The position numbers and the translations under genes were made by a program. From Lentisphaerota bacterium (GTDB lineage: Bacteria; Verrucomicrobiota; Kiritimatiellia; RFP12; JAAYNR01), in the NCBI GenBank assembly GCA_012520735.1, contig JAAYNR010000109.1, forward strand, positions 1 through 36,840: a stretch of DNA of 36,840 nucleotides. The letters run 5' to 3'. This document shows positions 936-10,927 of this stretch, in pieces; within the stretch, counting starts at the first letter, position 1, and every line of letters begins with the position of its first letter. The notes beneath the pieces were generated by a model that did no database searches, was not told the origin of the DNA, and saw nothing but the letters and a program-made list of their open reading frames with translations.

Positions 936-3900
936 ATGATGAGTGGTAAGCAGAGGATGTTGGCTGTAGTGCTTGTGGTTGTTGTTTTCAGTGGTATGTT
1001 TTGCCGGGCAGCGGGTGAGGAGGGGGTGCGTCGGGTAGTAGAGACGCAACGATTGCTGTATGAACCGAGTGGTATGGAGTTTGTGGCCGGCAAGCTGAAT
1101 CTTGAGGCAGTAACAGATTGGCGTATCTTGCGGATAGTCGATGGCGCGGAGGTAGTGGCAGAGCCGCAGCTTGGGTTGGGGAGAGAGGAGTGGGCTGCAC
1201 TGACAGAGTACGATACCGGGAAGTTGGGGCTACGGGTGCTTGAAGCACATCTGGGGCGCAGGGGGACTCAGGCGGCATCGTCTGCTTTCTACACATTACG
1301 CCAATACGCAGCGGAGCACGATGGCAAGTGGCCACCTTCTTTTGAGGCGTGGCAGGAGTATCTGCAGCGGGAGGATGTGAATAAAGCTCAGGTGCTGCGG
1401 ACTACAGGTTATGAGGAGAAGTTTGGGGTGTTTGGGGGTGAAAACTGTTGGGGGTTTGTGCATGATGCTCCCTGTGCAATGCGTTGGTATGATAATAATG
1501 GCGGTAAGAGATATGGGTGGCCTACCAATGATGCTGTGGTTTTGATGGAACTACGCCCGCTCTATGATGATGGTAAGCACCTTATAGTCCATGCCAATGG
1601 CTTTGTAGAGCGGGTGGCGATTAATGAGACGATGGTGGGGCGTTATGGCTGGACGATAAAACCGCTCCGGCAAAGTGACGGGGGGCGGAAGCCGCCTGAG
1701 GAGATAAGGTATGATCTTAGAGGGCGGCTGCAGGCACCGGGGTGGATGAGGTTTGTGGTATATAGCAGTAGTCTGGATAAAGAGGTTACCTGTGAATGGG
1801 TAATCGGTGATTTGCCACGGGTGGGTGGTGAGCCAGCGAAGGAGGTACGGAACGAATGGAGCCAGATGCGAGCTGCAAGTTGGCTGCAGATGACCACTGG
1901 TACACGTGATGTAAGCCTGCCGCTGTCAGCTCTACTACAGGTGGCCAGTGAGATTTATGGTAAGGATATTAACTCCTTACTTGAGCAGTTTGAGCGGAGA
2001 TCATGGAGGAGAGGGCGCAATAACAGCGGGGGTGAAACAACTGTTTTTGGTATGCTGGGGGGTGAAGCAGCGGTGAGTGAGACGTTGCAGTTGCAGAGTC
2101 TTGCTCAGGTTAGTGGTGGTGGTAGGGAGGTTTTGTTAAGTGCTATTAATGGTGTGGAGGTGGAGTCGCATCCATATGAGGAGATGTTGGCGGGCGCGGT
2201 AGGGGGGCACCTGCCATTGGCGGAGCTAGTGCCGGCTGATCGTATGATGGTTTATGCTGCCAAACCGCAGGCTCTGGCGGCTTTTCTGGAGGATGGCGCG
2301 GCTTTTGTTTCACGGATAGGTGCTACATCGACGGGACGTAGCATTGATTATGGGTTAGTGGAGCGGTATTTGGCCAAACTGGGGATGAACAGTGAGTTGG
2401 CACAGCAGTTATTACGCTCGGGGATTGTTGCGGAGCTGGCGATTTTCCTGCCGGATCTGTTTCTGATTAATGGTACAGAGGTGACGCTGGTATGTTGTGT
2501 GCCGCAGTTGAAGAGTTTGGCGGCAGTTTTGAAGTTTGGGAATCTGGCTGATGGCGACCAGAAGCCGATGTCTATGAAGGCACCATTGAATGGTGCGGAG
2601 ATCCATCTGGCGGCGAAGGGTGAGATTTTGATATTAGGGAGTGCTGCCAGTGAGGTAGCCAGAGCTTACGGATTGTTGCAGAATGGTGGTGCGGGGAGTT
2701 TGGGGCATAGCGCCGAGTTCAGGTATATGCTGCCCCAGTTGCCGATACTTGAGTCGACCCGTCTCTACGCCTATTTCTCGGATAGTTTTATCAGACGTCT
2801 GGTAGGTCCGGAGGTGAAGATAGGTCAGTTACGGAGGATGACCGAGATTGGCAGGTTGACAAAGATAGAGGCGGCACGTCTGCTGTGGGAGATGGATGGT
2901 AAACCGGGTGAAGAGCCAGGGCGCGATGTGATTGCGCAACTTCTGGCCAGTGGGTACCTGAAAGGTGAGGCGACGGCATATCAGGATGTGGTTTGTCATG
3001 AAGATGGCGCCATCAGCTCGGCGGCTTACGGCACGCTGGGGCAGATGAGCAGTTTGCTACAAAAGCCGATTACGCAAGTGACAGAATTTGAAGCGAAGAG
3101 CTATAAGCAGTATCGTGATCAATATACAAGTTATTGGCAGCAGTATTTTGATCCCATTGCGGTGCGTCTGGATGATACAAGCGACGGTGAGTTGCAGTTG
3201 ACTACTTTTATTCTACCGTTGATCAACAGTAGTCTTTACGACACACTGCGAGAATTTTTCTCTATCAGCAGAAGCGACACATTACGTACTTTTATTGCCA
3301 CGCCGGCGGCTCCATTGACAGTATCGTTTAATGTGAGCGAGGCATCATGGAGTGATATACTGCAAGATATGATGCCGGACGAGATGGTGCAACAAGCACC
3401 GGCTTTAGTGGAGATGCTCAATACTTTTAGCGGTGGGTTACATATTATGGTTCACGATAGCAACCCGGTTTTTGCAGCCGGTTCGGGTGAAATGCTGGCA
3501 CTGGGCGGCAGGATTAATGGTGGAAGGGGGGCGGATCTTCTCTTACCGCTGGCAGTGACTCTCTTTACCCGCCCCTGCACGTTGCTGGTGGAGCTGACAA
3601 CACCCGAAGCGGCTCGCAAAGCGTTGAATACGGCGACACTCAACAATCTTATCGCAGGGGTGATGAGGCATGGTGACGCAAATATTGCTGAGGCTTATCA
3701 AGTTGATGCGGCGGCGTGGATTATCCGTTTCGAGGTTTTTGGTATCAATGTACGGATCAAGATCGAGCTGCGTGACAATATGTTATTGGTGCAGAATATT
3801 CCTTGGATAGAGCCGTTTAAGCTAGACCGGATTGAGGAGGCGCACGGAGTAGCGGCACGGGCACTGCTGGTGCCGGGAGCGGCAGTTATGCAGCAGCCGG

Positions 3901-4265
3901 CGATGTTTGCGGCGGCACAGGAGCGGCTGCGGGGCATTGCTTTTGCTGGTGGTGAGAGGTTGATCCCCTTCATAGCAACGGGGGCGAGTGTGGGAGAGGC
4001 GTTGGCGCGTCATCAGGCCTGTTTCGGGTTTGTGCCACGTCATCCCGGCAATGGTGAGTGGGTGTTACGCAATGGCAGACTATACAGCGACATCTACGGC
4101 TCGGCCAAGGAGGTACGTCAACCGCAATATGCGCCAGATCTGGCACTGGGAGTGTTGGATGGAGTAGAGCGGCTTGAGGTGTCGATGCAGTTTGAGGATA
4201 GCGGACTACGCACCAATATCAAATGGCGTTACCAGAAGAGACAACCACAGGTGGAGGAGAAGTAG
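936..4265 (+). CDS. Large secreted protein of unknown function (1109 aa) with pseudopilin-like N-terminal segment
   Basis: Long ORF; N-terminal signal peptide (MMSGKQRMLAVVLVVVVFSGMFCRAAG); segment TLRQYAAEHDGKWPPSFEAWQEYL...GKHLIVHANGFVERV; no enzymatic motif recognised. Confidence 0.85.
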   Translation: MMSGKQRMLAVVLVVVVFSGMFCRAAGEEGVRRVVETQRLLYEPSGMEFVAGKLNLEAVTDWRILRIVDGAEVVAEPQLGLGREEWAALTEYDTGKLGLRVLEAHLGRRGTQAASSAFYTLRQYAAEHDGKWPPSFEAWQEYLQREDVNKAQVLRTTGYEEKFGVFGGENCWGFVHDAPCAMRWYDNNGGKRYGWPTNDAVVLMELRPLYDDGKHLIVHANGFVERVAINETMVGRYGWTIKPLRQSDGGRKPPEEIRYDLRGRLQAPGWMRFVVYSSSLDKEVTCEWVIGDLPRVGGEPAKEVRNEWSQMRAASWLQMTTGTRDVSLPLSALLQVASEIYGKDINSLLEQFERRSWRRGRNNSGGETTVFGMLGGEAAVSETLQLQSLAQVSGGGREVLLSAINGVEVESHPYEEMLAGAVGGHLPLAELVPADRMMVYAAKPQALAAFLEDGAAFVSRIGATSTGRSIDYGLVERYLAKLGMNSELAQQLLRSGIVAELAIFLPDLFLINGTEVTLVCCVPQLKSLAAVLKFGNLADGDQKPMSMKAPLNGAEIHLAAKGEILILGSAASEVARAYGLLQNGGAGSLGHSAEFRYMLPQLPILESTRLYAYFSDSFIRRLVGPEVKIGQLRRMTEIGRLTKIEAARLLWEMDGKPGEEPGRDVIAQLLASGYLKGEATAYQDVVCHEDGAISSAAYGTLGQMSSLLQKPITQVTEFEAKSYKQYRDQYTSYWQQYFDPIAVRLDDTSDGELQLTTFILPLINSSLYDTLREFFSISRSDTLRTFIATPAAPLTVSFNVSEASWSDILQDMMPDEMVQQAPALVEMLNTFSGGLHIMVHDSNPVFAAGSGEMLALGGRINGGRGADLLLPLAVTLFTRPCTLLVELTTPEAARKALNTATLNNLIAGVMRHGDANIAEAYQVDAAAWIIRFEVFGINVRIKIELRDNMLLVQNIPWIEPFKLDRIEEAHGVAARALLVPGAAVMQQPAMFAAAQERLRGIAFAGGERLIPFIATGASVGEALARHQACFGFVPRHPGNGEWVLRNGRLYSDIYGSAKEVRQPQYAPDLALGVLDGVERLEVSMQFEDSGLRTNIKWRYQKRQPQVEEK

Positions 4266-4274
4266 CGGCAAGAG

Positions 4275-4862
4275 CTATTCAGATTCGGATACGATAGAGT
4301 CTTTAATAGCGTTGTAATTGGCCAGAGCGTTCTCCAGTGCTCCGAGAGTGGCGCGTGAGGAGATGGTGGCAGCGGTGATGGCGGTGATATCGCCGCCATC
4401 TTTAGCGACCTTCCACTTGGTGTTACTGAGAGAGCGTGGCTTGCCGGAGCTATCGCGGGTGAGGCTGGTGCGGAAAGGTTCATCTTTGATTTTGGCACCG
4501 AGACCGGGGGTTTCACTGTGTTCGATAACCTCGTAGTTGTAGAGGGTGTCGTTGACCAGACCGAACATGACGGTAATGTTACCGCTATAGCCTTTAGGGC
4601 AGGAGCCTTGGATAGCGACACCGTTGATAACGCCATTTGGATCGCGTGAGACGTAGCAGGTGTTGGTCTGGTCAGCGATGACGACAGTGACGGCTTTGGG
4701 TGTGGCACCTTCAGGGAGAACTTTCTGAGCGGCTTCGAGGATACGGCGTGCTTTGCTCTGGGCGATGGGTTCACGGGTGACAGAGTTGACAGCCGCAAGG
4801 ATGGCAGTGCAGATGGCACTGATAAGGGCGAGTATAACGACTAATTTTACGATATCTTTCAT
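4275..4862 (-). CDS. rnfG: Rnf/Rsx electron transport complex subunit G (FMN-binding)
   Basis: 195 aa; single N-terminal TM, FMN_bind-like C-terminus ITAITAATISSRATLGALENAL; position after rnfD. Confidence 0.9.
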   Translation of the reverse strand: MKDIVKLVVILALISAICTAILAAVNSVTREPIAQSKARRILEAAQKVLPEGATPKAVTVVIADQTNTCYVSRDPNGVINGVAIQGSCPKGYSGNITVMFGLVNDTLYNYEVIEHSETPGLGAKIKDEPFRTSLTRDSSGKPRSLSNTKWKVAKDGGDITAITAATISSRATLGALENALANYNAIKDSIVSESE

Positions 4863-4871
4863 GGCATTCTC

Positions 4872-5867
4872 TTACTTTTTACGACCAAAGGGGAGGCGTT
4901 TACAGGCGCGGTTAATGAGGGGGGTGAAGGCGTTCATAACGAGGATGGCAAAGCTGACACCATCGGGGTAGTCGCCATTGATAACAGTACGGATGATCAT
5001 GGTGAGCAGGCCGCAGCCGATGCCGAAGATGATCAGTCCGATGTGAGTAATAGGGGTGGTGACCATATCGGTAGCCATGAAAAAAGCGCCGAGCATGAGG
5101 CCACCGCTGAGGAGATGGAAGTGAACAGGCATGGCGTTGGCTGAGCAGGTCATGTGGATAAGACCGTAGATGATGACGGTTCCGATGAAGGCGACAGGGA
5201 CATGCCAGGTGATGACACGGCGGATCAGGAGGTAGGCGGCACCAATGAGGATGGCGGCGGCGGAGACCTCGCCGATACAGCCGTTCATATTGCCGATGAA
5301 GAAGTTCCAGGTCATAGGGCCGGTCATGGTGAAGGGGAGGGGATCACCGGTTTTGAGGGTCTCTTTAACGAGAGAGAGTGGGGTGGCGGTGGTGATGGCG
5401 TCGGGGGAGAGCCAGTTTGAGGCACTCCAGGTGGTCATGGCACCGGTGCAGGAGATGAGGAGGAAAGCGCGTCCGATAAGAGCGGGGTTGAAGGGGTTGT
5501 AGCCGAGACCGCCAAAGGTTTGTTTGGCGATGGCGATAGCGACGACTGAACCGGCGATAGCCATCCACGAGGGGAGGTCTGGGGGGAGGTTGAAAGCGAG
5601 GAGGACGCCGGTAACCGCAGCACTGAAATCGGCGATAGTATTAGCACGGCGCATCGCTTTACGGCAGAGCCATTCGGTGATGAGACAGGCGGCAACACAG
5701 ACGGCAGTGAGGCGCACGGCATTCCAGCCAAAAAACCAGCAGGCAGCGGCAAAGGCGGGGATAAGAGCGATGAGGACATCGGCCATGATGCGGCTGACAG
5801 AAGAGCCTGAGTGGGTGTGCGGTGAGGAGCTGACTAACAGTAGGTTATCTGGTGCTTGTGGTTTCAT
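4872..5867 (-). CDS. rnfD: Rnf electron transport complex subunit D
   Basis: 331 aa multi-TM NqrB/RnfD family; FGGLGYNPFNPALIGRAFLL; MATDMVTTPITHIG; YPDGVSFAILVMNAFTPLINR. Confidence 0.95.
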   Translation of the reverse strand: MKPQAPDNLLLVSSSPHTHSGSSVSRIMADVLIALIPAFAAACWFFGWNAVRLTAVCVAACLITEWLCRKAMRRANTIADFSAAVTGVLLAFNLPPDLPSWMAIAGSVVAIAIAKQTFGGLGYNPFNPALIGRAFLLISCTGAMTTWSASNWLSPDAITTATPLSLVKETLKTGDPLPFTMTGPMTWNFFIGNMNGCIGEVSAAAILIGAAYLLIRRVITWHVPVAFIGTVIIYGLIHMTCSANAMPVHFHLLSGGLMLGAFFMATDMVTTPITHIGLIIFGIGCGLLTMIIRTVINGDYPDGVSFAILVMNAFTPLINRACKRLPFGRKK

Positions 5868-5913
5868 CTTTTAGTGTGGTCTCTTTTGGTGGTGACTTGG
5901 CAGGTAGTGTGGC

Positions 5914-7266
5914 TCAACCGGGGCGAGGGCCGGCGGCGCGTCGTTGAGCCATGATGATGGCTTTAGCGCGGCGCATATGTTGGACTAGTGGGCGGTGTGC
6001 CGGACAGACAAAGGCGCATGAGCCACATTCGAAACAGTCCATGACAAAGGATGCTTCGGCATTGGCGATATCTTCGGACTCAATATATTGACTGAGTTCG
6101 GCAGGCATCAGGCGCATGGGGCAGGCGTTAAGGCAACGTCCGCAGGAGATACACGCCTGAGAGGTAAACTGTTTGACCTGACTCGGCGAGAGGAGGAGGA
6201 GCCCGGATGAGGTTTTAGTCATGGTGACATCGAGGCTGGCTTGAGCAAAGCCCATCATTGTGCCGCCGGAGACCACCTTAGTGAGTGTGCCGGAGACACC
6301 GCCGCAGGCTTCAACCAGATAGCTGAATGGTGTGCCGATATGGGCGATAAGGTTAGCGGGTGCGGCAACGGCGTCGCCACTGACTGTAATAGAGCGTGTT
6401 ACCAGCGGCTGTCCATTGATAACAGCATCACGGATAGCATAGGTAGTGGCGACGTTTTCGACGACACAGCCGACATCCATGGGGAGCCCACCGGCGGGGA
6501 CGGTGCGTCCGGTAACCGAGAAAATCTGGTGTTTCTCACTCCCTTGCGGGAAAGAGGTTTTGAGGACACAGAGAGAGGCATTGGCGAGGTCAGCGGGGAT
6601 GGCCTGTTCCATGGCTCTGACGGCATCGGGTTTATTATCCTCAATAGCGACATAGATATTAGTGGCTTTTAGGATATGGGCGATAATAGCGGCACCCTCC
6701 CAGACAGCGGCAGAGTGTTCGAGCAAAATACGGTTATCGCCGGAGAGGTAAGGCTCACACTCAGCACCATTAATGATCAGGGTGTCGATCGGTTTATCGG
6801 CGGGGGGCGAAAGTTTAACATGGGTAGGGAACCCGGCACCACCCATACCGACAATACCGGCAGCACCGACCCGTTCGGCCAGTGTGCGGGGAGCAACCTC
6901 ACGCCAATTGGTGATAGGGGGGAGAGGGCTTTGCCAGGTGTGATTGCCGTCGGGCTCGATGACCATAGCGGGCGCAGGCCGGCCAAGAGGGGTGGCGGCA
7001 TCGCCTATACTGACGACTCTACCAGAGGTCGGGGCGTGGATAGCGGCCGAGATCATACCTGCGGCGGCGGCGATCATCTGGCCCCCGACAACGGTATCGT
7101 CGGGGCTGACCAGCGGCTTAGCCGGGGCACCGAGGTGTTGTGACATAGAGATAGTTAAGAGAGGGGGTAACGGCAACTCACGCAGTGGGGAGTTACAGGT
7201 GGTCTCTTTATGGTAAGTGGGGCTGACACCGCCGCGAAAATTAAATGGTGCGTATAGTCGTTTCAT
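5914..7266 (-). CDS. rnfC: Rnf electron transport complex subunit C
   Basis: 450 aa; FRGGVSPTYHKE...LPPLLTISMSQHLGAPAKP; GAGIVGMGGAGFPTHVK; two 4Fe-4S motifs CISCGRCLNACP and CFECGSCAFVCP. Confidence 0.97.
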   Translation of the reverse strand: MKRLYAPFNFRGGVSPTYHKETTCNSPLRELPLPPLLTISMSQHLGAPAKPLVSPDDTVVGGQMIAAAAGMISAAIHAPTSGRVVSIGDAATPLGRPAPAMVIEPDGNHTWQSPLPPITNWREVAPRTLAERVGAAGIVGMGGAGFPTHVKLSPPADKPIDTLIINGAECEPYLSGDNRILLEHSAAVWEGAAIIAHILKATNIYVAIEDNKPDAVRAMEQAIPADLANASLCVLKTSFPQGSEKHQIFSVTGRTVPAGGLPMDVGCVVENVATTYAIRDAVINGQPLVTRSITVSGDAVAAPANLIAHIGTPFSYLVEACGGVSGTLTKVVSGGTMMGFAQASLDVTMTKTSSGLLLLSPSQVKQFTSQACISCGRCLNACPMRLMPAELSQYIESEDIANAEASFVMDCFECGSCAFVCPAHRPLVQHMRRAKAIIMAQRRAAGPRPG

Positions 7267-7269
7267 GGT

Positions 7270-8061
7270 TCAACCGACCTTCCTGATACATTTTCCGGGA
7301 CATTTCTCAACCAACTCTTCATTGGTTAATGGCGGCTTAGTGTAGTCGACTTTAGCGAGGAAACCATCCATACTGATAGCACCATCGCTCAGTTTGACAC
7401 AAATGCGGCAGCCTATACAGCCGACACCACATACTTTTCTGACAACGGAGCCTTTATCCCTTGAGCTGCATAGGACATGGATTTTGGCCTCTTCGGGGAC
7501 GAGTTGGATCAGATTGCGCGGGCAGGCTGCCACACATTTACCGCAACCGATACAGGCACTGGAGTCGATTTTGGCGACCCCATCGACCATGGTGATACAG
7601 TTGACCGGGCAGACGCGGAGACATGAGCCATAGCCGAGGCAACCGAAAGAGCAGGCTTTATCACCACCGGCAATAGCAGCGGCGGCGGCACAATCGGTGA
7701 TACCATTATAAGAGAAATGGCGGATGGCTTCGGTGTTGCAGCCACCGCAAAGAACGAGCGCCACTTTGCGTCCGCTGGCGACAACAGCCTTGCCCAGCAG
7801 TGCACCGATAGCCTGAACAGCAGCACTTGAAGCAACGGGGCAGCGGTCGGGGGAGGTTTTATTTTCGACCAACGCTTTGGCATAATCGGCACAACCGGCA
7901 AAGCCACAGCCACCGCAATTGGCACCGGGGAGTTCGTTAGTGACTTGCTCAATACGGGGGTCTTCCGGGACACTAAGGTAGTAAGCGGCGAGGGCGAGTG
8001 CACCGCCGCAAAAGGCACCGATGCCCCCAATCCACATTATCGGAGTCAACCACTCATTCAT
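7270..8061 (-). CDS. rnfB: Rnf electron transport complex subunit B
   Basis: LPGANCGGCGFAGCADYAKALV, several further 4Fe-4S motifs. Start MNEW at 8061 favoured over 8079 because of an upstream GGAG. Confidence 0.95.
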   Translation of the reverse strand: MNEWLTPIMWIGGIGAFCGGALALAAYYLSVPEDPRIEQVTNELPGANCGGCGFAGCADYAKALVENKTSPDRCPVASSAAVQAIGALLGKAVVASGRKVALVLCGGCNTEAIRHFSYNGITDCAAAAAIAGGDKACSFGCLGYGSCLRVCPVNCITMVDGVAKIDSSACIGCGKCVAACPRNLIQLVPEEAKIHVLCSSRDKGSVVRKVCGVGCIGCRICVKLSDGAISMDGFLAKVDYTKPPLTNEELVEKCPGKCIRKVG

Positions 8062-8088
8062 ATTAAACACTCCCTGCAAATGGTGAGG

Positions 8089-8664
8089 TTATTTGACCAG
8101 ACCGCTAAAGCCCATAAAAGAGAGGCTAAGCAGTCCGGCGGTTACCAATGCTATGGCCACACCACGGAAGGCTCGCGGTGGGTTGGCCCGCTCGATTTTT
8201 TCACGTAAACCGGCAAAAATTATCAGGGCAAAGGCGAAACCCACAGCTGCGGCGACTGAGAAGAGGACGGAGATGCCGAGGCTAGATTCATTCTGCACAT
8301 TCATCACGGCCACGCCGAGGACGGCGCAGTTGGTGGTAATGAGCGGTAAGAAGATACCGAGTGCTCCGTGCAAAGCTGGCAGAAAGCGTTTCATAACGAT
8401 ATCGACCAGTTGGACAAAGGCTGCGATAAGGAGAATAAAGGCGGTGGTCTGCAGGTACTCCAGATTGAGCGGTGCCAGCAACCAGTCCTGAATACACCAG
8501 GTGACAGCGGCGGCCATCCCCATTACAAATATAACTGCCCCCGACATACCGATGGCTGTTGACATTTGTTTAGAGACACCGAGAAACGGGCAGATCCCCA
8601 GAAAACGGTTCAAGACAAAGTTGTTGACCAGAACCGCGCCTATTATTAACAGAACATATTCCAT
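8089..8664 (-). CDS. rnfA: Rnf electron transport complex subunit A
   Basis: 191 aa; MEYVLLIIGAVLVNNFVLNRFLGICPFLGVSKQ..., PLITTNCAVLGVA, GLREKIERANPP. Confidence 0.97.
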   Translation of the reverse strand: MEYVLLIIGAVLVNNFVLNRFLGICPFLGVSKQMSTAIGMSGAVIFVMGMAAAVTWCIQDWLLAPLNLEYLQTTAFILLIAAFVQLVDIVMKRFLPALHGALGIFLPLITTNCAVLGVAVMNVQNESSLGISVLFSVAAAVGFAFALIIFAGLREKIERANPPRAFRGVAIALVTAGLLSLSFMGFSGLVK

Positions 8665-8685
8665 ATCACAGCCTGAGGGGTTATT

Positions 8686-9774
8686 TTATTTTGCTTTTTC
8701 GAGCGCCTTGACATCAGTTGAGGTGATTGCCTTGAGGTTACGGGTGATTTTTTCGGCATCCCAATCCCACCAGGCGATCTCTTCCAGAGCTTTCACTATC
8801 TTATCAGAGAAGCGGCGCCGCAGTTCCACTGCCGGGGAGCCGGCAACCACGGTGTAGGGGGCGACATCAGCAGTGACCACGGCACGTGGTTCGATAATGG
8901 CTCCATTACCGATTTTGATACCGGGCATAATGACAGATTCAAAGCCGATGGTGACGTCATTGCCGACGATGGTATCGGGCAGTGGCTCGGGATCTTCATC
9001 CACGGGTGTTGCGGCTTCCCAGCCCTGAGCAAAGAGGGCAAAGGGGTAGCGGGTGAGGTGATCCTCACTGGCAACGGGGCTGGTGGTGTTCATAATAAAG
9101 CGGACTTTACGGCCAATGGCGGTAAAGCGACCAATCACTAGCCGGTTGCCGTTTTCGTTGGAGAGATTTATGACGCGATCTTCAAACGGTGCGCCACTGG
9201 TCTCTTCACTATAGGTATAGTCGCCGATATCGATGTTGGGGTTTTTTACTGTATTGGCGATAAAGGCGATACGGCGATCATTCCCCGGTAGCGGGAAACG
9301 GAGTGTGGGTGGAGGTCCGCATGGATCGGGCAGTTCGGGAACCTCGGGCAATTCGGGGATATCGGTCAGCGGAACATTATTCTCATTACACCAATTGACA
9401 ACAGCCTCACGCTCGGCGCGGTTTCGATAAGTAAACCAGATATCGGTGAGACCGAGTTCATCAGTCCAAAAGCGGAAACGGCGGTAAGCACCGCGGCGGG
9501 TGAAAAAGCCACGGACTTTATAGATATCATCGGGGCGGTACTCTTCAACGAAACTCTCCACCAGAGCACGCCCCAGATCGAGGCTTTTTTCACCCGGTAT
9601 CTGCGTACAGGCCTGCCAGTCGACATCCTCAGGTATCTTCGCCTGCTCCTCTTCAAGGTCTGTCCCCTTGAGATAAATTACGTCTCGTTCATGGTCATAA
9701 AATGCTCCACCGTCGACATAAATGGAGGCATCTGCAAACATTATCGCATCAATCAGTTCACTATAACTAGGCAT
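8686..9774 (-). CDS. UPF0158-domain / CatB-Vat-type hexapeptide acyltransferase fusion protein
   Basis: C-terminal half: LVIGRFTAIGRKVRFIMN...YPFALFAQGWE...DTIVGNDVTIGFESVIMPGIKIGNGAIIEPRAVVTADVAPYTVVAGSPAVELRRRFSDKIVKALEEIAWWDW (xenobiotic acyltransferase LbH type). N-terminal half: AFYDHERDVIYLKG...IPGEKSLDLGRALVESFVEEYRPDDIYKVRGFFTRRGAYRRFRFWTDELGLTDIWFTYRNRAEREAVVNWCNENNV (UPF0158 pattern). Track ORF begins at 9921; MPSYSEL at 9774 is the likelier start. Confidence 0.85.
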   Translation of the reverse strand: MPSYSELIDAIMFADASIYVDGGAFYDHERDVIYLKGTDLEEEQAKIPEDVDWQACTQIPGEKSLDLGRALVESFVEEYRPDDIYKVRGFFTRRGAYRRFRFWTDELGLTDIWFTYRNRAEREAVVNWCNENNVPLTDIPELPEVPELPDPCGPPPTLRFPLPGNDRRIAFIANTVKNPNIDIGDYTYSEETSGAPFEDRVINLSNENGNRLVIGRFTAIGRKVRFIMNTTSPVASEDHLTRYPFALFAQGWEAATPVDEDPEPLPDTIVGNDVTIGFESVIMPGIKIGNGAIIEPRAVVTADVAPYTVVAGSPAVELRRRFSDKIVKALEEIAWWDWDAEKITRNLKAITSTDVKALEKAK

Positions 9775-10123
9775 TTCTCTATCATCCTCTATACATGCTT
9801 TACTATTCCGGCGCAACCTTGCGTCTTCTATGCAGGCAGTAACAATCACGAGGATAGGCACACGGACTACCCAGCTTGCTAAACTCCCTGAAGGCGGTTG
9901 CACCTTAAGCTCGGTGGCCACCTTAAAACTTGGAAATCGCCTCTATAATAGCTAAAAAGTGGTAGATGATGCAAATGTAATTATATTAATAGTGGTAACT
10001 GTTTTTTATAAGGGCTTTTTTATGGGTTGAAGCTGCGCCGATTTTATGCCATATTTTTACTTGTCTTCAGATTAGGAACTTTTATCCTGCTCTGAGATAC
10101 AGTAATATGTTTCGGATATAGAG

Positions 10124-10927
10124 ATGAAAAAAGCGACCATAACCACTCCAGAACCGCAAGAGAGTGCAGAGGCTGTACAGGCCCCCAGCGCTACCGGAGC
10201 GATTTTGCGTAGCGATCATAAATCGCTCTACACGCAGTTGTTATCCGGGCTTTACGATGCGGTGCTTATAACCGACCCTAATGGCTATGTGATTGATACG
10301 AACCCGCGCGTTGAGGAGTTCTTTCAGTTTAAAGGGTCAGAAGTGTGGGATGAGATGATCGGCGAGCTGATCAGTGGTGTCGATTTGCCATTATTGGCGC
10401 GGGTACGCAAGGGGCTGGAGCAGGGGCGTTTGATCATGCTCGATGCCAAGTGTGTGCGTAAAGATGGGACGACCTTCCCCGGCGAGGTCTCTATCAGCAC
10501 TATCCGTGCTGTCAACGAAGGTGATCTGGTTTTTGCGGTGCGCAATGTGGAGCGGCGCAAGAGTGCCTGGAAAAAGATGCGCAGCGAGCAGAACGGCTGG
10601 CTGGTCTCGCTGGCACCAGGGGTGATTGTTGATCATGACGGGGTGATTTGCGGTGTCAACCGTGCGGCTGTGGAGTTGTGGCAGCGCAAGGGAGAGACGG
10701 AGTTTACCGGCAAATATTTTAAAGATTTATGGGAAAACGGGGCAGAGGCAGAGGAGGCTTTGGCTTTAACTGTTAAGGAGAAATCGTGGCGCGGTAAGCT
10801 GGCGGCTTTGCTTGATGATGGCCAGACGGTGCCAGTTGAGGTCTCTCTGGAGTCTGATGCCAGTGACCGGGGGAGTGCCGGCGGGTTTCTCTGTTCGCTA
10901 CTGCCCAGCGGAGGGGATGGCAATTAA
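10124..10927 (+). CDS. PAS-domain protein (two PAS-like domains, no output domain)
   Basis: LYTQLLSGLYDAVLITDPNGYVIDTNPRVEEFFQFKGSEV...KDGTTFPGEVSIS and a second GVIVDHDGVICGVNRAAVELWQRKGETEFTGK...DDGQTVPVEVSLE. Confidence 0.8.
   Translation: MKKATITTPEPQESAEAVQAPSATGAILRSDHKSLYTQLLSGLYDAVLITDPNGYVIDTNPRVEEFFQFKGSEVWDEMIGELISGVDLPLLARVRKGLEQGRLIMLDAKCVRKDGTTFPGEVSISTIRAVNEGDLVFAVRNVERRKSAWKKMRSEQNGWLVSLAPGVIVDHDGVICGVNRAAVELWQRKGETEFTGKYFKDLWENGAEAEEALALTVKEKSWRGKLAALLDDGQTVPVEVSLESDASDRGSAGGFLCSLLPSGGDGN

Follow-up and report, generated by a model that had tools for sequence, protein, structure and literature searches.

We analysed a stretch of 36,840 nucleotides (hereafter the window) from a Lentisphaerota genome, in which a minus-strand gene coding for a two-domain protein lies directly before a cluster of rnf genes. 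The ORF was uninterrupted from an ATG at 9774 to a stop codon at 8686 (362 aa); the frame stays open further upstream to a GTG at 9921, and conservation in the homologue from another genome, G001 (see below), begins only at MPSY. The features of the locus were the following:

9775..10123, no strand: divergent intergenic region of 349 bp between the fusion gene and a plus-strand gene (10124-10927), from the gene layout
8686..9774, minus strand: fusion CDS, 362 aa, with a UPF0158-like domain, a linker and an XAT (Vat/CatB-like) domain; single ORF, matched over its whole length by one open frame in G001 (58% identity)
9364..9774, minus strand: UPF0158-like domain, residues 1-137; Pfam PF03682 below cut-off, 36% identity to a stand-alone protein of G072
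9319..9363, minus strand: proline-rich linker, residues 138-152 (PELPEVPELPDPCGP region), read from the sequence; matching Pro-rich linker in G001 (53% identity)
8695..9318, minus strand: XAT left-handed beta-helix acetyltransferase domain, residues 153-360, from NCBIfam, a PDB sequence match, the AF2 model and Foldseek
9058..9087, minus strand: degenerate active-site loop TTSPVASEDH, residues 230-239, with Pro233 (codon 9076-9078) at the catalytic His position and a 2-residue insertion, from the alignment
8950..8952, minus strand: Thr275 (ACC), at the Trp position of DVWIG; all 45 XATs and the G001 protein have Trp there
8665..8685, minus strand: gap of 21 bp from the end of the fusion gene to rnfA, from the coordinates; the counterpart in G001 is 16 bp
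8089..8664, minus strand: rnfA (TIGR01943, 262 bits)
7270..8061, minus strand: rnfB (TIGR01944, 69.5 bits; ORF from a TTG at 8079, likely ATG start at 8061)
5914..7266, minus strand: rnfC (TIGR01945, 517 bits)
4872..5867, minus strand: rnfD (TIGR01946, 347 bits)
4275..4862, minus strand: rnfG (TIGR01947, 133 bits)

The five rnf genes each scored above their own NCBIfam subfamily cut-off. The set A, B, C, D, G and E was present in the genome, with A-B-C-D-G contiguous at 4275-8664 and an rnfE-type gene on another contig (G000:C262, L173:1966-2640); no further gene for an Rnf/Nqr-type membrane subunit was found in this genome. The cluster that the sequence-only reading had seen headed by the fusion gene is thus rnfABCDG, i.e., an rnf cluster without rnfE. 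The rnfE-type gene was unlinked from rnfABCDG in the window's family, and certain other families of this order, such as those of G011 and G012, had rnfA and rnfE on a single contig at a distance of about 4 kb. The fusion gene does end 21 bp upstream of the rnfA ATG (8664) on the same strand, as that reading had it. No terminator-like site was present in the 21-bp gap by sequence scan, and a scan of the junction gave one promoter-like match (8669-8642), at chance level; consensus promoter and terminator scans were in general near chance level. The likely promoter site of a fusion-rnf transcript is the divergent region 9775..10123. The plus-strand gene beyond this region, at 10124-10927, was by reading a PAS-like sensor gene, and a PAS protein of similar look (L094) was found directly before rnfA in G011.

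The G001 homologue, from a different genus of the window's family, was encoded in one frame (360 aa) and aligned over its full length with the window fusion at 58% identity. In G001, 16 bp separate the gene from rnfA, and B, C, D and G come next in the same order as in the window; a divergent region (~360 bp) is again present upstream, with unrelated genes beyond: thiD/thiC in G001 and the plus-strand PAS-like gene in the window, both by reading. Therefore, the only linkage shared by the two loci is that with rnf. Conservation is also absent on the 3' side of the rnf genes: in G001, rnfG is followed by a lipoprotein-like gene (L067:15119-15640), and in the window a 1109-aa plus-strand ORF (936-4265) occupies that place. 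The same open-frame architecture next to rnfA in a second genus excludes a frameshift or an assembly join of two genes, and supports the co-transcription with rnf that had been suggested for the window; given a layout conserved in two genera, the fusion gene and rnfA are likely co-transcribed. The proposed UPF0158-XAT fusion was thus confirmed as a gene, and it is a new domain architecture built from two known families. In phylogenetic trees the XAT domains of the two fusions formed one clade (100/98), as did their N-terminal domains (100/100). G002, the third genome in the family and 81% complete, had the rnfE-type gene only and was left out of the linkage comparison.

Residues 153-360 of the window protein are a full-length left-handed beta-helix XAT domain. 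The NCBIfam Vat model NF000311 matched residues 158-357 (E=4.5e-59), a PDB sequence search matched VatA (4hur) over residues 150-360 (E=3.8e-45), and Foldseek placed the AF2 model next to VatA (4hus, E=3.2e-20). Confidence of the model was high over most of the XAT part except about residues 231-260, where block means fell to 52-67. Scores were below every Vat or CatB equivalog cut-off of NCBIfam (Vat, 199.4 bits vs 300; CatB, 150.7 vs 350), and the mean identity to 45 XAT relatives was about 43%. As in the Vat streptogramin A O-acetyltransferases and CatB (VatA 4HUR/4HUS, CatB 2XAT), with which the domain aligns over its whole length, the oxyanion Tyr is kept: Tyr188 in GDYTY aligns with Tyr42 of VatA (PDB alignment; numbering from PMC7885111). 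Most of the beta-helix and the WWDWDAEKIT C-terminus are kept as well. Unlike Vat and CatB, the window protein lacks both the catalytic His and the Trp of DVWIG, carries an extra N-terminal domain and has a chromosomal rnf context. A plasmid search returned XAT matches only, with no plasmid record covering 80% of the fusion query.

The catalytic His (VatA His87, CatB His79) was present in all 45 aligned XATs and in G001, within NSPAH; Pro233 takes its place in the window. The C-terminal half had been described as a plain CatB/Vat-type acyltransferase; its fold is of that type, but the description does not hold as written, since this copy lacks the catalytic His as well as another invariant residue. 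These losses come from a single MAG, the one genome of its genus in the sample. Base-calling errors were rejected at both sites: the ACC of Thr275 matches TGG at none of its three bases, and the His site combines a 6-base insertion with several substitutions. The catalytic His is conserved in all Vat and CATB sequences (PMC7885111), and it is essential in a CatB enzyme, whose H79A mutant had an activity of 0 (PMC5331189). However, ApmA, an XAT relative, still confers apramycin resistance when the equivalent His is changed to Ala (H135A; PMC7885111), so the loss of His in the window is no proof of inactivity. Judged by these residues, the O-acetyltransferase activity of the window XAT has probably been lost or altered. 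End-branch lengths in the XAT tree were 0.84 for the window and 0.41 for G001, vs 0.40 and 0.34 in the N-domain tree and 0.186 and 0.177 in the RnfA tree; as the XAT branch doubled while the other two were nearly balanced, the change was specific to the enzyme half. In both domains second codon positions differed far less than third positions (0.27 and 0.57, respectively, in the XAT part of the window vs G001), and this pattern, together with the absence of stops, makes the gene unlike a pseudogene and still selected.

The N-terminal domain was more difficult to assign. Pfam UPF0158 (PF03682) matched the whole protein with E=0.039 (14.4 bits) and residues 1-136 alone with E=0.006 (17.0 bits), below the gathering cut-off of 21.1 bits, and the G001 protein scored lower (12.2 bits). 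This sub-threshold match came close to speaking against the UPF0158 assignment made from the sequence, and was overcome by means of an intermediate. A stand-alone protein of 140 aa from the same order (G072), which itself passes the PF03682 cut-off at 32.0 bits, was 36% identical to window residues 1-139 and matched the N-domain with a phmmer E of 1.7e-23 (small local sequence set). Membership in the family is therefore firm: going by this intermediate, residues 1-137 are a divergent UPF0158 domain, shorter than the ~190 aa first attributed to it. The domain shares the core pattern of the stand-alone UPF0158 proteins, with P60, L65, Y97, W113 and W128 invariant in 18 sequences, but differs from them in its divergence, in its sub-threshold direct Pfam score and in its fusion to XAT; in the N-domain tree its group was a divergent subgroup on a long stem. 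Structure prediction, which had been proposed for confirming two domains, was confident for the XAT part. An AF2 model of the N-domain alone, made without homologues, had a pLDDT of 48.6 and was kept out of the fold search as unreliable, as was also true of the N-domain in the full-length model, a run that used XAT homologues only. No relative of UPF0158 was found in the PDB and none of the N-domain in viral contigs; the only naming met in a literature search on UPF0158 was a list entry for a Chlamydia trachomatis gene among transposon hits (PMC8767425).

An 18-sequence UPF0158 profile, searched against 388 genomes from the phylum, revealed UPF0158-like domains in 22 genomes, nine of which had the domain within a larger fused ORF. 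UPF0158 proteins had been said to be normally small, and this is true of most copies, but fusion is not exceptional. The fused architectures, including one from outside the phylum sample, were:

UPF0158 + XAT: G000 (the window genome) and G001
UPF0158 + ferredoxin (Fer4) + nitroreductase: G136 and G137, same class as the window (L084, L086)
UPF0158 + transglutaminase-like: one genome, G531 (L129)
UPF0158 + a domain of ~350 aa without Pfam match: G475 and G535 (L126, L131)
Ntn/AAT-type domain (weak match) followed by a C-terminal UPF0158: one genome, G521 (L133)
N-terminal part without assigned family, with UPF0158 at the C-terminus: one genome, G404 (L150)
UPF0158 + GNAT (PF00583): two Treponema-type genomes (L167, L168), spirochaetes outside the phylum sample

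UPF0158 is thus a recurrent fusion module, joined in other bacteria to at least four kinds of enzyme besides XAT. The XAT and nitroreductase architectures each corresponded to a single clade in the N-domain tree. In the nitroreductase fusions the N-terminal module is the same as in the window and the junction lies at a similar point, about residue 137, but the partner is Fer4 plus nitroreductase instead of XAT. In the spirochaete proteins, one of which was scanned and had both domains above the Pfam cut-offs, UPF0158 is also N-terminal to an acetyltransferase, although the GNAT fold is unrelated to that of XAT. No neighbours common to the other UPF0158 fusions were recognised at three loci.

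We propose, with moderate confidence, that the window protein descends from an O-acetyltransferase with UPF0158 as an accessory part, and that its present role, as the first protein encoded on the rnfABCDG transcript, is mainly that of a binding scaffold. The gene would give a soluble two-domain protein, first on that transcript if co-transcription holds. Solved CatB/Vat relatives are trimers with active sites between chains (PMC8096840; PMC7885111), and by analogy the XAT part would trimerise and hold three UPF0158 domains on flexible Pro-rich tethers. The ancestor, and still the G001 protein, was probably an acetyl-CoA-dependent O-acetyltransferase acting on a small hydroxylated compound. 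UPF0158 may be an accessory module that brings substrate or a partner to the enzyme; this adaptor role is suggested by the fusion patterns, since the same domain is joined to several unrelated enzymes. With His and Trp gone, O-acetyltransferase activity would most likely be lost in the window genome while the N-domain is still constrained, and the protein may then work mainly by binding. We regard as unlikely a more specific form, in which UPF0158 is a module for recruitment or regulation that attaches in general to unrelated small-molecule enzymes, and in this genus has survived the loss of its enzyme; the catalytically dead XAT trimer would then be a three-armed scaffold presenting UPF0158 domains and co-expressed with the Rnf complex.

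Two of the alternatives concern the fate of the enzyme half. The protein may still be active in acetyl transfer, with its chemistry or substrate changed, e.g., base-free N-acetylation of amines as proposed for ApmA, with UPF0158 shaping the acceptor site. The retained beta-helix, Tyr188 and C-terminus, the continued selection on the XAT part, the resistance of ApmA H135A (PMC7885111) and the existence of a UPF0158 fusion with a second, unrelated acetyltransferase fold all agree with this; the loss of the invariant Trp in addition to His, the 2-aa insertion and low model confidence in the active-site loop, and the doubled XAT branch make it rather unlikely. The same missing residues and long branch would also be expected of a gene of the xenobiotic-resistance type in decay, joined by chance, retained as the first cistron and losing its enzyme function in this genus without a new role. 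This we consider quite improbable, given the intact frame, a fusion maintained in two genera, an N-domain that is constrained and not accelerated, and the codon-position pattern of selection in both domains.

The remaining alternative makes the protein an accessory or assembly factor for Rnf, with a first-gene position that reflects a direct role in maturation or regulation of Rnf. The gene is directly before rnfA in two genera with different upstream genes, with co-expression likely, and this adjacency makes a direct role in Rnf function possible. On the other hand, no fusion, UPF0158 or XAT gene adjoined rnfA at about 28 further rnfA loci in the order (inspected to about 1.5 kb upstream, with a few contigs ending sooner), and in the DNA read the stand-alone UPF0158 genes of G072 and G042 had no rnf gene as neighbour; a general association of UPF0158 with rnf was thus rejected. 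Moreover, the two genomes share one ancestor, and the linkage may be inherited instead of functional. We find this alternative improbable, to the same degree as decay.

The value of the fusion is mainly as a way into the study of UPF0158. With a set of fusion partners whose chemistry is known, among them acetyltransferases of two unrelated folds, the function of this domain becomes a testable question, i.e., what it binds and whether it changes the substrate range of its partner; G001, with the active-site residues kept, and the window genome, with them lost, offer a natural comparison of whether UPF0158 matters without catalysis. Among the UPF0158 genes, that in G590:C378 (L148/L157) was split by a stop and a frame change, and is probably broken or a sequencing error. 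The same type of acetyltransferase was also found with another N-terminal partner, GrpB, in a fusion from a Chlamydiae MAG (L003:5557-6630).
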